Source of the DNA: Pontibacter sp. G13
Lineage (GTDB): Bacteria; Bacteroidota; Bacteroidia; J057
DNA: 64,000 bases
Assembly (NCBI RefSeq): GCF_031851795.1
Contig: NZ_CP134696.1
Span: forward strand, 682,001-746,000
Direction of reading: 5' to 3'
This document shows, one piece after another, positions 1,718 through 57,532 of the stretch (positions are counted from its first letter, which is position 1; the number at the start of each line of letters is the position of its first letter). A program made the translations under genes and the position numbers. The notes beneath the pieces are model-generated. The model saw only the letters and a program-made list of their open reading frames with translations. It was not told where the DNA came from and did not search any database.

Positions 1718-2602
1718 ATGAAAAACAATCGGAAAGCGAATCAACAAGCCAAATCGGCGCTTTCGCTCAAACTTGCCAAGCGGCTATATTCCGTGGTCGG
1801 GACTGCCTTGGCATTTGGGCTCTTATTTGTAGTCACCTATGATGTCGAGCAGGTCAGTGAGCGTAACCTGATGTACGCCACCAGCATGGACGACGCACTG
1901 TCTCAGGCATTCAGCGAGGACAAACAGTGCTTTGTCTTGTTTTATGCTGATTACTGCTATCCCTGCGATCGAATGGAGCGGATGTTTGCAGAGCACCCTC
2001 GGTTGATGGAAGTTCTCAACAGCAATTACACCCTATATAAAATCAATGCGTCCGACAGCTTTACGGGAGGAGATGAATTGGCACAATCCTATCAAGTAGA
2101 TGAGTTTCCGACCTGTATCATCACCGATGCTTCCGGTCGCGAGGTCAAGCGAATCACAGATGAGTTTGATCCTGATATCCTTTCCGAACACCTATTTGCG
2201 GCTCATGAATTGCGGACCATCCCGACCTCCATGGACAACGCCATGACTTTCGAGGCTGCTGATATGGACGCGATGGAATCCCTACTGCCCAATGGAGAAG
2301 GCTTGGAACCAGAATTCGGACTCATTGTGGGGAATTTCTCGACCTACTCCCAAGCCAAGGAAGCAGCTATCTCGGAGCGGAGAAAGTGGAACGGCGCTAT
2401 ATACATTCAGCCGGAAGGGAGCCACGAATTCAAGCTGATCATCGGCCCATTCACAGACAAAGATGAAGCAAAGGCTACCCGGTCCTTCCTCAAAATCTGG
2501 GAACAGGAGAAAACTCAACTCGTGAAGCTGAAGCACGAAAGGATATCCCTAGACGTCATTTTGGGTCAAGAATCACAGGCTAAACTGCCCGAAGAACATT
2601 AA
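1718..2602 (+). CDS. Membrane-anchored thioredoxin-fold protein with C-terminal SPOR domain
   Basis: 294 residues. A single N-terminal membrane segment (about residues 23-43, after a basic cytoplasmic stretch) anchors a thioredoxin-like domain at about 60-165 with the redox motif C-Y-P-C (near residue 83) and a cis-Pro loop 'EFPT' near 132. The last ~75 residues look like a SPOR domain ('GLIVGNFSTYSQAKEAA', then 'IIGPFTDKDEA'), the fold that binds denuded peptidoglycan glycan strands. The expected location is the periplasmic face of the inner membrane, with thiol-disulfide activity directed to cell-wall regions under remodelling. The domain assignments are from motifs; the combination is uncommon. 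No obvious operon partner: the next gene is on the opposite strand. Confidence 0.75.
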   Translation: MKNNRKANQQAKSALSLKLAKRLYSVVGTALAFGLLFVVTYDVEQVSERNLMYATSMDDALSQAFSEDKQCFVLFYADYCYPCDRMERMFAEHPRLMEVLNSNYTLYKINASDSFTGGDELAQSYQVDEFPTCIITDASGREVKRITDEFDPDILSEHLFAAHELRTIPTSMDNAMTFEAADMDAMESLLPNGEGLEPEFGLIVGNFSTYSQAKEAAISERRKWNGAIYIQPEGSHEFKLIIGPFTDKDEAKATRSFLKIWEQEKTQLVKLKHERISLDVILGQESQAKLPEEH

Positions 2603-2626
2603 TCCTTGAAGAAACAGATGACGGGG

Positions 2627-3058
2627 CTAGAAACGAAATAGCTTAAATTGAACCATCGGAGCGGAACCTACAGGGGCTGCTGAAACCGAAGACTTAGGCG
2701 GTACCTTGATCCAGACAGGTACCGTCATTTGATTTTCGGCTTTGAGTTCCAAATGGCAAAGGAAAGAGTATCCGGAAGGATTGCTGCGCGCGTATTGGGG
2801 CAATGTCTGATAACCTTGGGAGAGATTCAATCCAGCTGCGAAGGAATCAGAGGCAATCGGGGCCGGAGACACAGACAGGTTTGAATGAGGGAGGGAGAGC
2901 GAAAGTCTCTGAGAAATCGGCAATGAGGTAGAATCTGCCTGAGCGTGAAGTGCCGAAGTCCCGATCATTGCCCAGACCAAGAAAAAAGCCAGCCTCCTCG
3001 CCACAAGCGTGACAAGGAGGTGGAATATGGTTCGATATGTGATTACATGCCTTCCCAC
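2627..3058 (-). CDS. Small exported hypothetical protein
   Basis: Up to 143 residues, not recognised. A Sec signal is clear: a hydrophobic stretch ending 'GTSALHA' before 'QADS'. The reading frame starts with GTG at 3058, overlapping the end of the DUF2911 gene by 16 bp; a second GTG at 3004 would give a more typical short signal peptide (125 residues). The mature part is Ser/Pro-rich with a possible beta-strand pair near the C-terminus and ends in '..FKLFRF', an aromatic end often seen in outer-membrane or secreted proteins. Translational coupling with the upstream DUF2911 gene is likely. Function unknown. Confidence 0.55.
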   Translation of the reverse strand: MGRHVITYRTIFHLLVTLVARRLAFFLVWAMIGTSALHAQADSTSLPISQRLSLSLPHSNLSVSPAPIASDSFAAGLNLSQGYQTLPQYARSNPSGYSFLCHLELKAENQMTVPVWIKVPPKSSVSAAPVGSAPMVQFKLFRF

Positions 3059-6685: not shown

Positions 6686-7738
6686 ATGCCTCCTGTTACG
6701 GTCGTCATTCTCAATTGGAACGGAAAACATTGGCTTGAGCAATTCTTGCCCTCTGTCATGCAATCCACCTATCCAGACCTCCACGTGCTGGTGATGGACA
6801 ATGCCTCGACAGACGACAGTGTAACGTTCCTCCAAGCCGAGTACCCAGACGTTCAGGTGGAAGTTCTCCCGGAGAATTACGGATTCACTGGCGGCAACAA
6901 CCGCGCACTCCCTTATATCGAAACCCCCTATTTCGTCCTGCTCAACAGCGACGTTGAAGTCACCCCCGGCTGGCTGGAACCTTTGGTAGCATTGGCGGAA
7001 TCTGATCCAAAAATTGCCTCTGTACAGCCCAAGATCAAGGCGCATTTCGACAAAGCCCTATTCGAATATGCCGGCGCATGTGGTGGGTTCATGGATTCAT
7101 TGAGCTATCCATTCTGCCGAGGTCGAATGTTTGACGACTTGGAGGCCGACATGGGCCAATACGACACCTCCATGGACATTTTCTGGGCATCTGGCGCGTG
7201 CTGTCTGCTCAGAACCGATGTCGTGCAGGAAATCGGCTTATTCGAGGAGTCCTTCTTTGCCCACATGGAAGAAATCGACTTTTGCTGGCGCGCCAAGAGT
7301 TTTGGATACCGCGTCATGGTCGAGCCCCAATCGGTCGTGTATCATGTTGGGGGCGGCTCACTGCCAAAATCCAATCCCAAAAAGACCTACCTCAATATCC
7401 GGAACAGCCTCGCTTGCATGCGCAAGAATCTCCCGGACGGTCAAGTATTTTCAAAGATCTTCGCCAGATTGATCCTCGATGGTGTTTGGGCGTTCAAATC
7501 CTTGCTTCGAGGAGATTTCGGAACCATTGGAGCCATCATCAAGGCGCATTGGCACTTCTTCGGAAAACTCGGATTCTGGGCAAAGCGCCGCAAAGAAATC
7601 TACGGCCCCAAAGGTCCACAACCCATCCAGACCGGCGTCTATCCGGGTAGTGTCGTATGGCAATACTTCGGAAAAGGCGTCAAGAAATGGGGAGATCTGA
7701 TGGGACAACCCACCCGAGAAGCTGTCAAGGAATCCTGA
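6686..7738 (+). CDS. Family 2 glycosyltransferase
   Basis: 350-residue GT-A fold transferase. The N-terminal strand 'VVILNWNG' and 'VMDNASTDDS' bind the nucleotide-sugar, 'NYGFTGGNN' is the conserved loop typical of rhamnosyl/WsbD-like GT2 enzymes, and 'LLNSDVEV' is the DxD-like metal site. 'HMEEIDFCWRAKSFGYRV' is the acceptor-side motif carrying the likely catalytic acid residues. Probably adds a sugar to cell-surface polysaccharide or glycolipid at the cytoplasmic membrane; the donor cannot be assigned. A 148-bp tandem repeat array begins about 75 bp after the stop. Confidence 0.93.
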   Translation: MPPVTVVILNWNGKHWLEQFLPSVMQSTYPDLHVLVMDNASTDDSVTFLQAEYPDVQVEVLPENYGFTGGNNRALPYIETPYFVLLNSDVEVTPGWLEPLVALAESDPKIASVQPKIKAHFDKALFEYAGACGGFMDSLSYPFCRGRMFDDLEADMGQYDTSMDIFWASGACCLLRTDVVQEIGLFEESFFAHMEEIDFCWRAKSFGYRVMVEPQSVVYHVGGGSLPKSNPKKTYLNIRNSLACMRKNLPDGQVFSKIFARLILDGVWAFKSLLRGDFGTIGAIIKAHWHFFGKLGFWAKRRKEIYGPKGPQPIQTGVYPGSVVWQYFGKGVKKWGDLMGQPTREAVKES

Positions 7739-7814
7739 TTCCCGGTTAAATTTCAAGCAAAAATCCCCTCCCAAAAGCAAGGTTCTGATCGGACCTTCGA
7801 AGTAGTGTATGCTT

Positions 7815-8588
7815 GAGGTTCCGGATAGGCACAGTTGCAGCCAAAACCAATTTCCCTTGATAATGGATGAATCCTTGTTTTGAAGCGAAAATGGGCAGAT
7901 TTGGGTTCTCCCGAAGCCATTTTTGCAGGACATAGTGGGCTATTTCAGAAAAATGGCGAACTGAGGTTCCGGATAGGCACAGTTGCAGCCAAAACCAATT
8001 TCCCTTGATAATGGATGAATCCTTGTTTTGAAGCGAAAATGGGCAGATTCGGGTTCTCCCGAAGCCATTTTTGCAGGGCATAGTGAGCTATTTCCCAAAA
8101 ATGGCGAACTGAGGTTCCGGATAGGCACAGTTGCAGCCAAAACCAATTTCCCTTGATAATGGATGAATGCTTGTTTTGAAGCGAAAATGGGCAGATTCGG
8201 GTTCTCCCGAAGCCATTTTTGCAGGACATAGTGGGCTATTTCCCAAAAATGGTGAACTGAGGTTCCGGATAGGCACAGTTGCAGCCAAAACCAATTTCCC
8301 TTGAAAATGGATGAATCCTTGTTTTGAAGCGGAAATGGGCAGATTCGGGTTCTCCTGAAGCCATTTTTGCAGGACATAGTGGGCTATTTCCCAAAAATGG
8401 CGAACTGAGGTTCCGGATAGGCACAGTTGCAGCCAAAACCAATTTCCCTTGATAATGGATGAATCCTTGTTTTGAAGCGAAAATGGGCAGATTCGGGTTC
8501 TCCCGAAGCCATTTTTGCAGGACATAGTGGGCTATTTCCGAAAAAATGGCGAGAGGAGGTTCCGGATATGCACATTTGCAGCCAAAAC
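7815..8588 (+). repeat. 148-bp tandem repeat array (5 full units plus a partial sixth)
   Basis: Unit starts at 7815, 7963, 8111, 8259, 8407 and 8556 (last one truncated after about 33 bp); spacing is exactly 148 bp for the first four steps. Units differ at only a few positions. Each contains an outer stem (GCGAAAATGG with CCATTTTTGC), an inner stem (TTCGGG/CCCGAA, loop TTCT), and a downstream AAAAATGGC that could pair with the same GCCATTTTT arm instead. Since 148 is not a multiple of three, the antisense reading frames change from unit to unit, which argues against a coding array. Strand '+' reflects the orientation in which stem substitutions keep G-U pairs. Function unknown. Confidence 0.95.
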
Positions 8589-8592
8589 AAAA

Positions 8593-8617
8593 AACCGTTC
8601 AGTAGAACTGAACGGTT
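8593..8617 (-). terminator. Bidirectional hairpin terminator
   Basis: Perfect 11-bp stem (AACCGTTCAGT / ACTGAACGGTT) with a 3-nt loop, flanked by A-tracts on the left and T-tracts on the right. It ends the minus-strand gene at 8642-8887 and would also stop any transcript leaving the repeat array on the + strand. Confidence 0.85.
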
Positions 8618-8641
8618 AATTTTTTCGAGGACGAGTATTCC

Positions 8642-8887
8642 TTACACGGAAGCCTCGCGCTTGATGCGCTCCAAAGGAATGAACAGGAACATGAATCCCA
8701 AGGCTACATTCAATCCACCGAGGAAAGGTCTCCATGCGCCATTGTAGGCATCGGTATTGAGGACGGTCAATTCCTGGCCGTTGTATTCTTGTGTTACAGT
8801 CTCAGGATCCTGCTTATTAAACCCGGAAACCATGATGAACAAGCCGAGGATAATCAGGACGAAGGCGATAGCGTTTCGAATTTTCAT
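8642..8887 (-). CDS. Small two-helix membrane protein
   Basis: 81 residues, not recognised. Two hydrophobic segments (about 5-22 and 56-73) flank a polar region with 'DPETVTQEYNGQELTVL', so both ends are probably cytoplasmic with an exported loop. A strong terminator follows immediately, and codon use resembles neighbouring genes, which supports a real gene. No partner gene is adjacent. Confidence 0.65.
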   Translation of the reverse strand: MKIRNAIAFVLIILGLFIMVSGFNKQDPETVTQEYNGQELTVLNTDAYNGAWRPFLGGLNVALGFMFLFIPLERIKREASV

Positions 8888-47018: not shown

Positions 47019-48602
47019 CTAACTACTAATTACAGTTATACTGACACTCCTTAAGGATGATTCCTCTGGTTTTGATTTTGGCCGCCAGCTAAAACTAATA
47101 GAACTATTTTTCTTAATTAATAGATGGAAATTATATTTATGCCAAACTTCTGCAATACACATTACTATTTTTTGAAGGAATGAAATAGAGTAATTGCTTA
47201 TTTCCCTATCATCCAAGACCGAATACAGTATGGTTTTTTCTTTGTGGCTTAGCCTAAGGCCATTTACCAATTTCAAAAGTATCGACCTAAAGATTCCGAA
47301 ATAATGGCGTTCATTTAACTCGCCATTTTTCCAGAGAACCATTACTTGGTGGTAGTCAACAACATTACTCTTGAACCTATCTGACAGAATGACATCATTC
47401 CAATTAGTATGATATCTATAGAATCCAACTCCGTTTATATACCAAATAAGATCTTTTTCATAACATAGAACTATTTTATCAGATTTATATTCCATTTTCG
47501 ATGACTTCTCAACAAACTCTCTTGCCTGTTCAAGCGACTTCAAATATCTATTGTATGAGGTAGAATAGTAATTAGGCGAAACATCATAATCATTCAACAA
47601 TCTTACTCGAAAAGGCATAAAGGCCCAACAATAGTAATCAATAGAGTTTTTTCCGTGCCGTATATGAAAGTACTGATAACCAAAAAATAACCAAATCAAA
47701 ACACCTCCAAAAACTGAAATAAATTTCACAACAAAAGACAGTGTATCTCCTGTAAAATAGAATTCAACAAATAACGCATTATTAAAATTTAAATTAATAA
47801 ATCTTGATGAAATGAACCATATTTGAATTAAAAAGAAAAAGGAAACAATAATAAAAATATGCCTCGGGTATCTCCAGGAAACTATCTTGAATTCTTTGCT
47901 ATATCTCCATCTACTAAGGGAAAAAGGTTGTGTAAACGAGTTTAAAAAGCCCCAAATAATTATCCTGACAAAAGATAATTGCATATCTTTTTTCTTGATA
48001 GGATTTACCACCTTACCTTCCCCTGAAACTTCATATAAATAACCATTATATTCCTTCTCTCGCTTCCCTGATGGCCATAATCCAAAATCTAAAGACTTTA
48101 ATTGCGCATAAGGAAAATCTTTAGGTTCCCGCCTATTACCCCATCTTGACTTAATATACTCCCAAGAAAAAATATCTGAAAAATTGGTACTCCACGATGA
48201 AGTATCATTATCCTTATCATTATCCTTTTTCCAAAAAATCTCAGAGGATGACTTAATTCTCGAATGCCATATTTCCTGAGATAGGAGTTGTAGGTATCCC
48301 ACATATTGGTTGTGAGCGATGAACCTGTAGTTAATTACCCAATATATTGCAAGAATATAAACAAGCTCAATGCTAAGGATGAAATCAGGATTCTCGAAAA
48401 TCTGAAGCAGTTCAGAGACAGGCCCTTCAGGGTGAGTACTTTCAGCGGAAGCATTCTTTGCTCCTCTCCTAAGAAATCCAAAAATCAGAAACGCTACGCT
48501 ATTACTTCCGATGATATGTCCAAAATATCTAGTAATGCTGTCCCTTATTGATTTTACTTCATTCTTAAGAAGTTCATACTCCTTTACCGATTGCTTAAGC
48601 AT
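47019..48602 (-). CDS. AT-rich membrane protein of unknown function
   Basis: 527 residues, not recognised. Several hydrophobic segments: about 33-44, 76-92, 206-222, 250-270, 291-310. The N-terminal start has a coiled helical 'ELLKNEVKSIRDSITRYFGHIIGSNSVAFLIFGF' that resembles SLATT-type or pore-forming effector-linked membrane proteins, which is only an impression. A long cytoplasmic C-terminal part follows. The gene is much richer in A/T (Lys, Ile, Asn, Ser, Tyr codons) than all neighbours, so recent horizontal acquisition is likely. No partner gene is visible. Confidence 0.6.
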   Translation of the reverse strand: MLKQSVKEYELLKNEVKSIRDSITRYFGHIIGSNSVAFLIFGFLRRGAKNASAESTHPEGPVSELLQIFENPDFILSIELVYILAIYWVINYRFIAHNQYVGYLQLLSQEIWHSRIKSSSEIFWKKDNDKDNDTSSWSTNFSDIFSWEYIKSRWGNRREPKDFPYAQLKSLDFGLWPSGKREKEYNGYLYEVSGEGKVVNPIKKKDMQLSFVRIIIWGFLNSFTQPFSLSRWRYSKEFKIVSWRYPRHIFIIVSFFFLIQIWFISSRFINLNFNNALFVEFYFTGDTLSFVVKFISVFGGVLIWLFFGYQYFHIRHGKNSIDYYCWAFMPFRVRLLNDYDVSPNYYSTSYNRYLKSLEQAREFVEKSSKMEYKSDKIVLCYEKDLIWYINGVGFYRYHTNWNDVILSDRFKSNVVDYHQVMVLWKNGELNERHYFGIFRSILLKLVNGLRLSHKEKTILYSVLDDREISNYSISFLQKIVMCIAEVWHKYNFHLLIKKNSSISFSWRPKSKPEESSLRSVSITVISS

Positions 48603-48760
48603 TGAACAATTAATTATAGCAAAATAATTTAATACAATTAATTAAATTATAATCATTTAAAAAACAAAACCTTCCTATCTACTGAGTTTTCTGTTTTGAT
48701 TTCACAATAGCTTAGTGGTCCATCCATTCCCTATATTTGCCCCAACAAATTCACAATATC

Positions 48761-56569: not shown

Positions 56570-57532
56570 TTATCGAAACTTGCCGACCCATCTTCGATAC
56601 CGAGTGACCACTCCCACATGCAAACCCGTAATTAGTGCAACCTGAGCATTATCCATCTCTATGTTCAGACAATTGTCAAGGGTTCGTTTGAGCCTTTTGT
56701 GATCGCCTCGTTTGAGACCGATCTCCTTTCCCTCGGCTTTGCCCTCGATTTTGCCCTCGATTTTGCCTTCGATCTTTCCTTCGGCTTTGCCCTTTCTTTG
56801 GGCAGCCTCGGCGTTTTCATCCATCAGAAAATCCCAGTCCCATTGTTCCTTGAGACTGTCCAAATAGGCATGAAATTCATGCTGACTCAGTTTGGAAATT
56901 TCAGATTGCTTCATCAGTTCCTCATAAATGGTGCCTTTCATCATGGGCGGAACTTCCTTCATCTCGTGAAGGTGCCGAAATAGATACACCCAATGGTCGT
57001 AGGGTGTTTTCAGTTCGTTGAGCCCCTTGATGAATTTGGGCGTTTCGATGAATATCAAGTTGATCTTTTCATAAGATACGGATTTGTCGGTGATATCCGT
57101 CAACTGATAATGATGATATTCAGGCCTATCCCGCTTTTTTCGTTCGTCAAACCTATACCCCAACATTCCGATGAAATAGGTGGCATGGATTCTATATTTC
57201 CAGATTTTCCCCCGTTTGGCTTGATGCTGAATCATCGCAGCTACATAGAAAATCCCTCGGTCCATAAAATGGGTCTGGCGCATCCGTTGAATTTCCACAA
57301 TGATATGTTCCCCATTACTGCTGATGCATCGGAGATCCACAATGGCTTTTCGGCTATCAGCATGCTCCCCCGGAAATTCCTGGGGTTGGAGTTCGAGATC
57401 TACAATTTCGATTGAGCCCACAAGCATGGCATTCAGAAAGTGAATCAACAGGGGCTTGTCCTCGGGTCGACCAAACAAGTACTTGAACCCGAAATCACTC
57501 ATGAGGTTGAGGTAGCGGTCTTTGAGTTCCAT
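56570..57532 (-). CDS. Rpn/PD-(D/E)XK nuclease-family protein
   Basis: 320 residues. The family (recombination-promoting nuclease/PDDEXK transposase-like) opens with 'MSDFGFKYLFGRPEDKPLLIHFLNAML'. The nuclease core has Asp in 'KAIVDLRC' and Glu-Ile-Gln in 'HIIVEIQRM', the D..ExQ version of the fold. Near the C-terminus is a repetitive Gly-Lys-Ile-Glu stretch ('EGKIEGKIEGKIEGK'), encoded by 12-bp DNA repeats. Members are thought to nick DNA and promote recombination, and are often mobile. No inverted repeats or target-site duplication are visible. Confidence 0.9.
   Translation of the reverse strand: MELKDRYLNLMSDFGFKYLFGRPEDKPLLIHFLNAMLVGSIEIVDLELQPQEFPGEHADSRKAIVDLRCISSNGEHIIVEIQRMRQTHFMDRGIFYVAAMIQHQAKRGKIWKYRIHATYFIGMLGYRFDERKKRDRPEYHHYQLTDITDKSVSYEKINLIFIETPKFIKGLNELKTPYDHWVYLFRHLHEMKEVPPMMKGTIYEELMKQSEISKLSQHEFHAYLDSLKEQWDWDFLMDENAEAAQRKGKAEGKIEGKIEGKIEGKAEGKEIGLKRGDHKRLKRTLDNCLNIEMDNAQVALITGLHVGVVTRYRRWVGKFR
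56726..56794 (-). repeat. 12-bp repeats coding for Gly-Lys-(Ile/Ala)-Glu
   Basis: Five to six in-frame 12-bp units (core TTTGCCCTCGAT) within the C-terminal part of the Rpn nuclease gene. Slippage here adds or removes four residues without changing the frame. Confidence 0.75.

Follow-up and report, generated by a model that had tools for sequence, protein, structure and literature searches.

Introduction

MITEs are widespread, and for several of them an RNA fold has been predicted. In the portions available to us, a 2024 review of prokaryotic MITEs describes their transcripts as stable stem-loops with possible roles as terminators or riboswitches (PMC10969869). From similarly partial sources, one copy of the BrickBuilt family, BrickBuilt_5, is positioned behind a Rho-independent terminator (PMC4596501); BOX elements contain a tandem boxB array, and SPRITE elements are enriched at the 3' ends of genes (PMC3049150). 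ERIC and NEMIS hairpins are reported to affect mRNA as RNA, ERIC in an orientation-dependent manner, in the sections of the report at hand (PMC2229807). As far as these accounts extend, hairpins of the BOX/SPRITE (PMC3049150) and ERIC/NEMIS (PMC2229807) kinds can act in or on transcripts. REP/BIME elements, in the descriptions available to us, are palindromes of 20-40 bp linked to a Y1 transposase.

Here we describe a family of long imperfect hairpins, or rods, in the 7.67-Mb genome of Pontibacter sp. G13 (G000). The starting point is a tandem array in the window, by which we mean the whole 64,000-nucleotide stretch analysed (C1:682001-746000). An earlier note, made from the letters alone, had drawn two competing hairpins in each unit and raised the possibility that the array is a repeated small RNA or switch. 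A mobile-element origin accounts for the dispersal of the family better than that proposal. Among the matches listed in our literature searches, in the text they returned, none describes the rod family.

Results

A tandem array beside a terminator

The array spans 7814-8588 with a period of 148, 5.2 copies, 96% matches and a score of 1429 (TRF), and alignment recovers the five full units and partial sixth that had been reported. The unit as it had been cut, 7815-7962, is out of phase. In the corrected phase the array consists of one right-half fragment followed by five complete rod cores (Table 1), and its true unit is a long rod hairpin. A protein-coding array was considered and rejected: although the minus strand has ORFs of up to 145 aa running across it, the period of 148 is not divisible by 3, and a codon-based gene caller written for this analysis called zero genes inside the array. 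An Rfam search of the window gave 0 matches at or above the gathering score, and a tRNA search of the window found none. TRF also reports tandem repeats elsewhere in the window, at 48203-48660 and 56726-56793: short AT-rich ones and one of 12/24 bp.

A terminator does follow the array, as the earlier note had it, with an A-run at 8589-8594, a hairpin that folds at about 8593-8617 and a T-run at 8620-8625. That description needs one correction: A- and T-runs flank the hairpin on both sides, and the terminator also faces the opposite-strand 81-aa ORF, a layout seen again at other loci. This ORF has no Pfam match at E 1e-5. The 350-aa ORF on the other side of the array, which we take to be glycosyltransferase-like, has relatives in many Bacteroidota.

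Table 1. Features of the array and its surroundings, in positions of the window
Feature	Position	Strand	Basis
350-aa ORF upstream, same strand as rods	6686..7738	+	Codon-based gene call; stop 76 bases before array
Upstream right-half rod fragment, array start	7814..7851	+	Core positions 88-125; 38/38 identical to right half of core 1
Rod core 1	7875..7999	+	R1 match, 103.4 bits
Rod core 2	8023..8147	+	R1 match, 106.5 bits
Rod core 3	8171..8295	+	R1 match, 103.5 bits
Rod core 4	8319..8443	+	R1 match, 105.8 bits
Rod core 5, terminator-proximal	8467..8592	+	R1 match, 135.6 bits; copy part of R1 model
Intrinsic terminator abutting last rod	8589..8625	not assigned	Read from sequence, folded, docking test
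81-aa ORF, 'host' gene of terminator, 3' end towards array	8642..8887	-	Codon-based gene call

The unit is one long hairpin kept by compensatory change

Iterated profile search and alignment led to a covariance model, R1, for which 30 loci each supplied one copy, either their only one or the one next to the terminator. The unit that it describes is a single long imperfect hairpin with a 127-nt core, or about 161 nt with its outer arms. The outer arm reads GAAGCTGTTT..GGGG/CCCC..AAACAGCTTC and is missing from a second, armless type, to which the window array belongs. Inward of the arm, TTTTGAAGCGAAA...CAGGTTCTCAA pairs with TTGAGGTTCTG...TTTGCAGCCAAAA, and the centre is formed by GCCATTTTT and AAAAATGGC below an apex of CATAG..CTATG. 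The central pairing had been drawn as a separate downstream hairpin; it is the middle of one long rod.

Across the 30 loci, standard pairs occupy 94.1% of 1247 cells, against 82.3% in shuffled rows and 36.4-52.6% in slid versions of the structure. Changes on both sides occur at 29 of the 43 rod pairs, and the rod covariation score is 0.352 versus 0.128. Compensatory changes reach into the outer arm (GAAGTTGATTCATGG/CCATGAATCAACTTC, GAAACTGGTTATGG/CCATAACCAGTTTC and GAAGGGGGTGAGGG/CCCTCACCCCCTTC), and two G-U pairs of the rod are nearly fixed. These two make up about half of the 76 G-U cells counted in proximal copies, which have 10 A-C cells among 898; the other array copies have 167 G-U and 71 A-C cells among 1990. 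Pairing stands at 95.2% for proximal copies and 85.1% for the remaining array copies; single copies pair at 93.3% when high-scoring and at 80.1% when low-scoring. The contrast between proximal and other copies is partly built in, because R1 was trained on proximal copies. At one docked locus with two tandem copies (L214:2365-2659), the inner hairpin looks replaced and the outer stems are retained.

The two mutually exclusive hairpins proposed for each unit can both be drawn in every window copy, and the stem substitutions on which that proposal drew are present (copy 1: TTTGGG; copy 3: AAAAATGGT; copy 4: CCTGAA and GCGGAAATGG). The rod is nevertheless the minimum free energy fold in all five window cores, at -36.8, -42.6, -41.9, -43.3 and -52.4 kcal/mol for cores 1 to 5, core 5 being the most stable (the others range from -36.8 to -43.3). 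Forcing the alternative gives -36.8, -39.1, -37.0, -36.3 and -38.8 kcal/mol, so that for copies 1 to 5 the cost is 0.0, 3.5, 4.9, 7.0 and 13.6 kcal/mol and the alternative is a real competitor in copy 1 only. Nor is the upstream hairpin a conserved feature: over 30 loci its pairs are standard in 64.0% of cells compared with a shuffled mean of 65.7%, and an excess of double changes or covariation is absent. A switch could in principle be built differently, with a right half lying upstream of the rod competing for its left strand, and that partner too is weak, since among 20 loci the best partner of the left strand is the upstream right half in 5 and the downstream one in 16. A tandem small RNA or switch with two exclusive states per unit thus seems to us most improbable.

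Dispersal, inverted ends and an IS5-family partner

Further copies, for which the earlier note had proposed a search, occur both in this genome and in relatives. Blastn gives 62 matches in the own genome and R1 gives 108, both strands counted, far beyond chance. They resolve into at least 95 distinct copies at 47 loci. Of these loci, 26 hold a single copy and 21 a tandem array of 2 to 7; since scoring covered only some of the candidates, the numbers are minimum values. By eye, the matches show no pattern of chromosomal strand bias.

Counting the own genome, R1 matches 3 of 60 relatives and, at E 1e-4 under strict filters with few candidates scored, 7 of 395 genomes of the class. A second model, R2, made from the copies of G006 and G044, matches 3 of 13 family genomes; blastn with a consensus among the 60 genomes gives a match in the own genome only. 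G006 holds 26 distinct copies, no two of them adjacent. The relatives' elements are single copies with inverted ends, 157-163 bp from end to end in four other genomes, and in 10 of the 14 relative copies with recognisable ends (23 tried) they lie between identical 3-bp flanks (TTA, TCA, TAT, ATA). G325, from another family of the class, has five 161-bp copies (L289-L293) that are pairwise 96-99% identical, four of them with identical 3-bp flanks, and these copies were probably mobile recently. Among own single copies with recognisable ends, the 3-bp duplication is found in 1 of 3 that are undocked and 1 of 9 that are docked, that is, abut a terminator (see below). The undocked copy L045 has TTA on both sides, and its sequence is nearly that of the docked L038.

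The ends of the element, GAAGCTGTTTAAG...CTTAAACAGCTTC, are held in common with an IS5-family insertion sequence. In the 26 of 49 single copies where ends were recognised, these match at 10-12 of 12 positions; in the armless type, window array included, inverted ends are absent. The insertion sequence (L232:1398-2329, 932 bp) encodes an IS5-family transposase (NF033580, 132.1 bits, cut-off 110), ends in GAATCTGTTTAATG and GAAGCTGTTTAAGG, and has GCT flanking each end. Over 18 bp, its right end, GAAGCTGTTTAAGGTTTT, is identical to the ends of L234, L235 and L212, the last of which is matched by R1. It sits between look-alike ORFs at 619-1392 and 2386-3048.

Together, the inverted ends and 3-bp duplications of the relatives and the own IS5 element with its matching 18-bp end make a MITE the best reading of the family, and we regard this origin as fairly secure. 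The rods are short (about 161 bp), multi-copy (95 own copies) and non-coding (no gene in the window array), and the insertion sequence supplies an autonomous partner whose transposase would mobilise them in trans. Several observations fit a MITE less well. Only one insertion sequence with rod-like ends was found in the own genome, its left and right ends differing at 2 of 14 bases; in G006, with its 26 copies, no PF01609 transposase passed E 0.001; and the armless type lacks the inverted ends altogether. The scarcity of duplications in docked singles also counts against it, yet array formation would destroy the left one.

One strand folds better

The earlier note had argued from G-U pairs that the + strand is the one that folds, and the direction is borne out. 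The + strand has the more stable fold in 87 of the 95 copies of the own genome (mean -46.2 vs -36.0), as it does in 7/7 of the first relatives, 24/26 copies of G006 (six of which overlap the first set) and 9/9 copies of G325, G244 and G160 (the five of G325 being near-identical). With DNA folding parameters the + strand is favoured in 91 of the 95. Because G-T pairs stabilise single-stranded DNA too, the G-U excess tells which strand folds and not that the folded molecule is RNA.

The rod might instead work as DNA, a hairpin or cruciform that binds a gyrase- or IHF-like protein behind expressed genes, as has been proposed for the BIMEs of E. coli. The palindromic form, the 3' location of the copies and the DNA-parameter result would suit such a site. 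The two nearly fixed G-T (G-U) pairs and the compensation in the arms point to folding of one strand rather than to a duplex site, and we consider this explanation very unlikely. A MITE has a difficulty of its own here, in that a DNA transposon with symmetric ends predicts by itself neither that one strand folds better nor a single orientation, and the compensatory change in the outer arm is likewise not something it alone predicts.

Most rods lie behind terminators in one orientation

An abutting terminator is found on the 3' side of the rod at 37 of 47 loci and on the 5' side at 3, compared with 45 of 1000 random intergenic points drawn from the same genome stretches as the loci. The rule used (T at 6 of 8 positions, dG no higher than -7 kcal/mol, 14 nt of core overlap) is a widened version of a stricter one that had missed the armless type, and also admits one weak case (L205, -7.7); under the stricter form the counts are 27/47, 1/47 and 19/400. 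Docking extends to all 21 tandem loci, and the ten loci that lack it are single ones. Among these ten are the seven high-divergence copies with the lowest scores as well as the top-scoring L045.

The gene beyond the 3' end of the rod lies on the opposite strand at 40 of 47 loci, and read along that gene the order at many loci is GC hairpin, T-run, element. The rod is not itself an intrinsic terminator, in which a T-run would come after the hairpin on the same strand: an A-run follows its + strand, and the neighbouring terminator is read from the side of the convergent gene. Terminator stems vary from locus to locus, which bears on whether terminators travel with the element; one stem pattern of several loci has three occurrences in the genome, two of them beside the arrays L046 and L054, and is not decisive. 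Of 40 opposite-strand host genes, 30 proteins were scanned and 21 have a Pfam match; hosts include GyrB, ribosomal L20, SecDF, YidC, GAPDH and S-adenosylhomocysteine hydrolase, and no pathway common to the Pfam-matched proteins among those scanned is apparent. In relatives, 3 of 37 copies are docked (2/26 in G006 and 1/11 in G325, G244, G160, G044 and G003). Docking and arrays are best read as peculiar to the Pontibacter sp. G13 genome among the genomes examined.

One-sided docking beside such hosts would be expected if a former MITE had been domesticated as a 3'-end RNA, the rod stopping, marking for cleavage or protecting transcripts that enter the terminator from the opposite direction. The greater stability of the + strand and the best pairing in the proximal copy would also be in keeping with this, the latter with the reservation that R1 was trained on proximal copies. 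The + strand would have to come from transcription antisense to the host gene or be part of a convergent neighbour's 3'UTR. At 26 of 47 loci the gene upstream lies on the opposite strand, so no neighbour obviously produces it. The + polarity is also seen in G006, where docking is rare, which means that docking is not the cause of the polarity. We view domestication as a tentative alternative.

Anatomy of the tandem arrays

The arrays repeat the whole hairpin unit, with unit lengths of 129-169 bp. In the 14 arrays whose last copy carries the right outer arm, inner units are without it: a few bases of right arm give way to a spacer, locus-specific and about 10-24 nt long, and then to the next left arm. 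The spacer is not a decayed right arm, its identity to its own arm being 5.9/18 against 5.1 (sd 0.46) for mismatched pairs, with the excess confined to the first bases and 7 armless arrays included in the mean. Two arrays 1.56 Mb apart (L046:2944-3536 and L055:3012-3758) have an identical inter-unit spacer and different outer flanks, so that an entire array must have been either copied or moved. Of the 21 arrays, 17 have their most stable copy next to the terminator, 2 show a tie and 2 have it elsewhere; two of the 17 were decided by 0.3 kcal/mol or less (L209, L056), and such comparisons of stability, like those of pairing, lean to proximal copies through the training set of R1.

In nine of the 21 arrays a 5'-truncated unit lies upstream, starting at unit position 83-111, and seven of these start at 83-95, the base of the inner hairpin. 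In the other 12, three start in the spacer, one has a further whole unit, one an odd match and seven nothing. An upstream right half is also present at 12 of 16 docked single loci compared with 1 of 10 undocked ones.

Truncated starts are what a SINE-like process would leave, in which an A-tailed + strand rod RNA is reverse transcribed by priming on the T-runs of terminators. Were this the case, docking, orientation, the A-run junction, the lack of duplication and 5'-truncated multimers would all follow, and the 37 loci docked in the predicted orientation, the clustered starts and the right halves of docked singles are consistent with it. Against it stand the 12 arrays that begin otherwise, the spacers, which are locus-specific except at L046/L055 and point to local duplication, and the relatives, whose elements behave like DNA MITEs with duplications; the sole RVT_1 gene found is an orphan reverse transcriptase (L252:943-2334). 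We think a SINE-like origin very unlikely.

Discussion

Our results lead us to think it probable, with some reserve, that the rods are non-coding IS5-related MITEs, mostly selfish and lodged at a site made safe by terminators, with at most a secondary use at transcript ends. Their function is one that we infer: chiefly they would serve their own persistence, and a role for the host at transcript ends is putative, something we hold possible rather than likely.

We envision a scenario in which a hairpin MITE spreads through the genome and does least harm where it inserts directly behind the T-run of a terminator. Copies in this position would be tolerated, or might be targeted since T-runs are A/T-rich, and those that are retained would keep the fold of one strand intact. 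Right halves flanking a rod form a direct repeat that could expand by unequal recombination or slippage, and with such a repeat upstream arrays would grow and shrink through recombination, the proximal copy staying intact as the others decay. The prevailing orientation is the main unexplained point; perhaps selection favours a better-folding strand that opposes the host gene, or perhaps the insertion reaction itself sets the direction.

A fold of one strand is kept in this family by compensatory change across several genera and families, and one genome has dozens of terminators with the element behind them in a single orientation. Whether the hairpin is kept for the element or for the host is a testable question, and how a mobile element comes to terminators is a second. 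The order of parts in the arrays (right half, spacer, left arm, inner hairpin, right half) makes them a natural system for the study of arrays seeded by a hairpin.

Group IIC introns also insert directly behind intrinsic terminators in a single orientation. They share this habit with the rod, which differs in being about 161 nt long, in having no ORF and in that its better-folding strand lies opposite the host gene. REP/BIME elements with a RAYT were considered and set aside on the size of the rod and on linkage, the two Y1_Tnp genes of the genome (C1:1435526 and C1:5488564) both lying more than 10 kb from any R1-match locus. ERIC/IRU and NEMIS/Correia are, like the rods, small palindromic MITE-like elements; compared by description only, the available portions of the report describe neither docking at terminators nor tandem arrays for them (PMC2229807). 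BOX and SPRITE of Streptococcus pneumoniae resemble the rods as interspersed folded repeats, and SPRITE, in the sections at hand, is itself terminator-like (PMC3049150), whereas at a rod the terminator is the gene's own and the element lies behind it. Nearest in kind, as far as the accessible text allows, is BrickBuilt of Porphyromonas gingivalis (PMC4596501), which like the rods is a Bacteroidota MITE with IS5-like inverted ends, tandem repeats and long predicted stem loops in intergenic regions. In BrickBuilt, by the same partial account (PMC4596501), the tandem part is a 23-nt minisatellite between leader and tail, while in the rods an entire hairpin of 129-169 bp is repeated; and, unlike BrickBuilt as there described, the rods show covariation and strand polarity and are docked in an oriented way at many loci.
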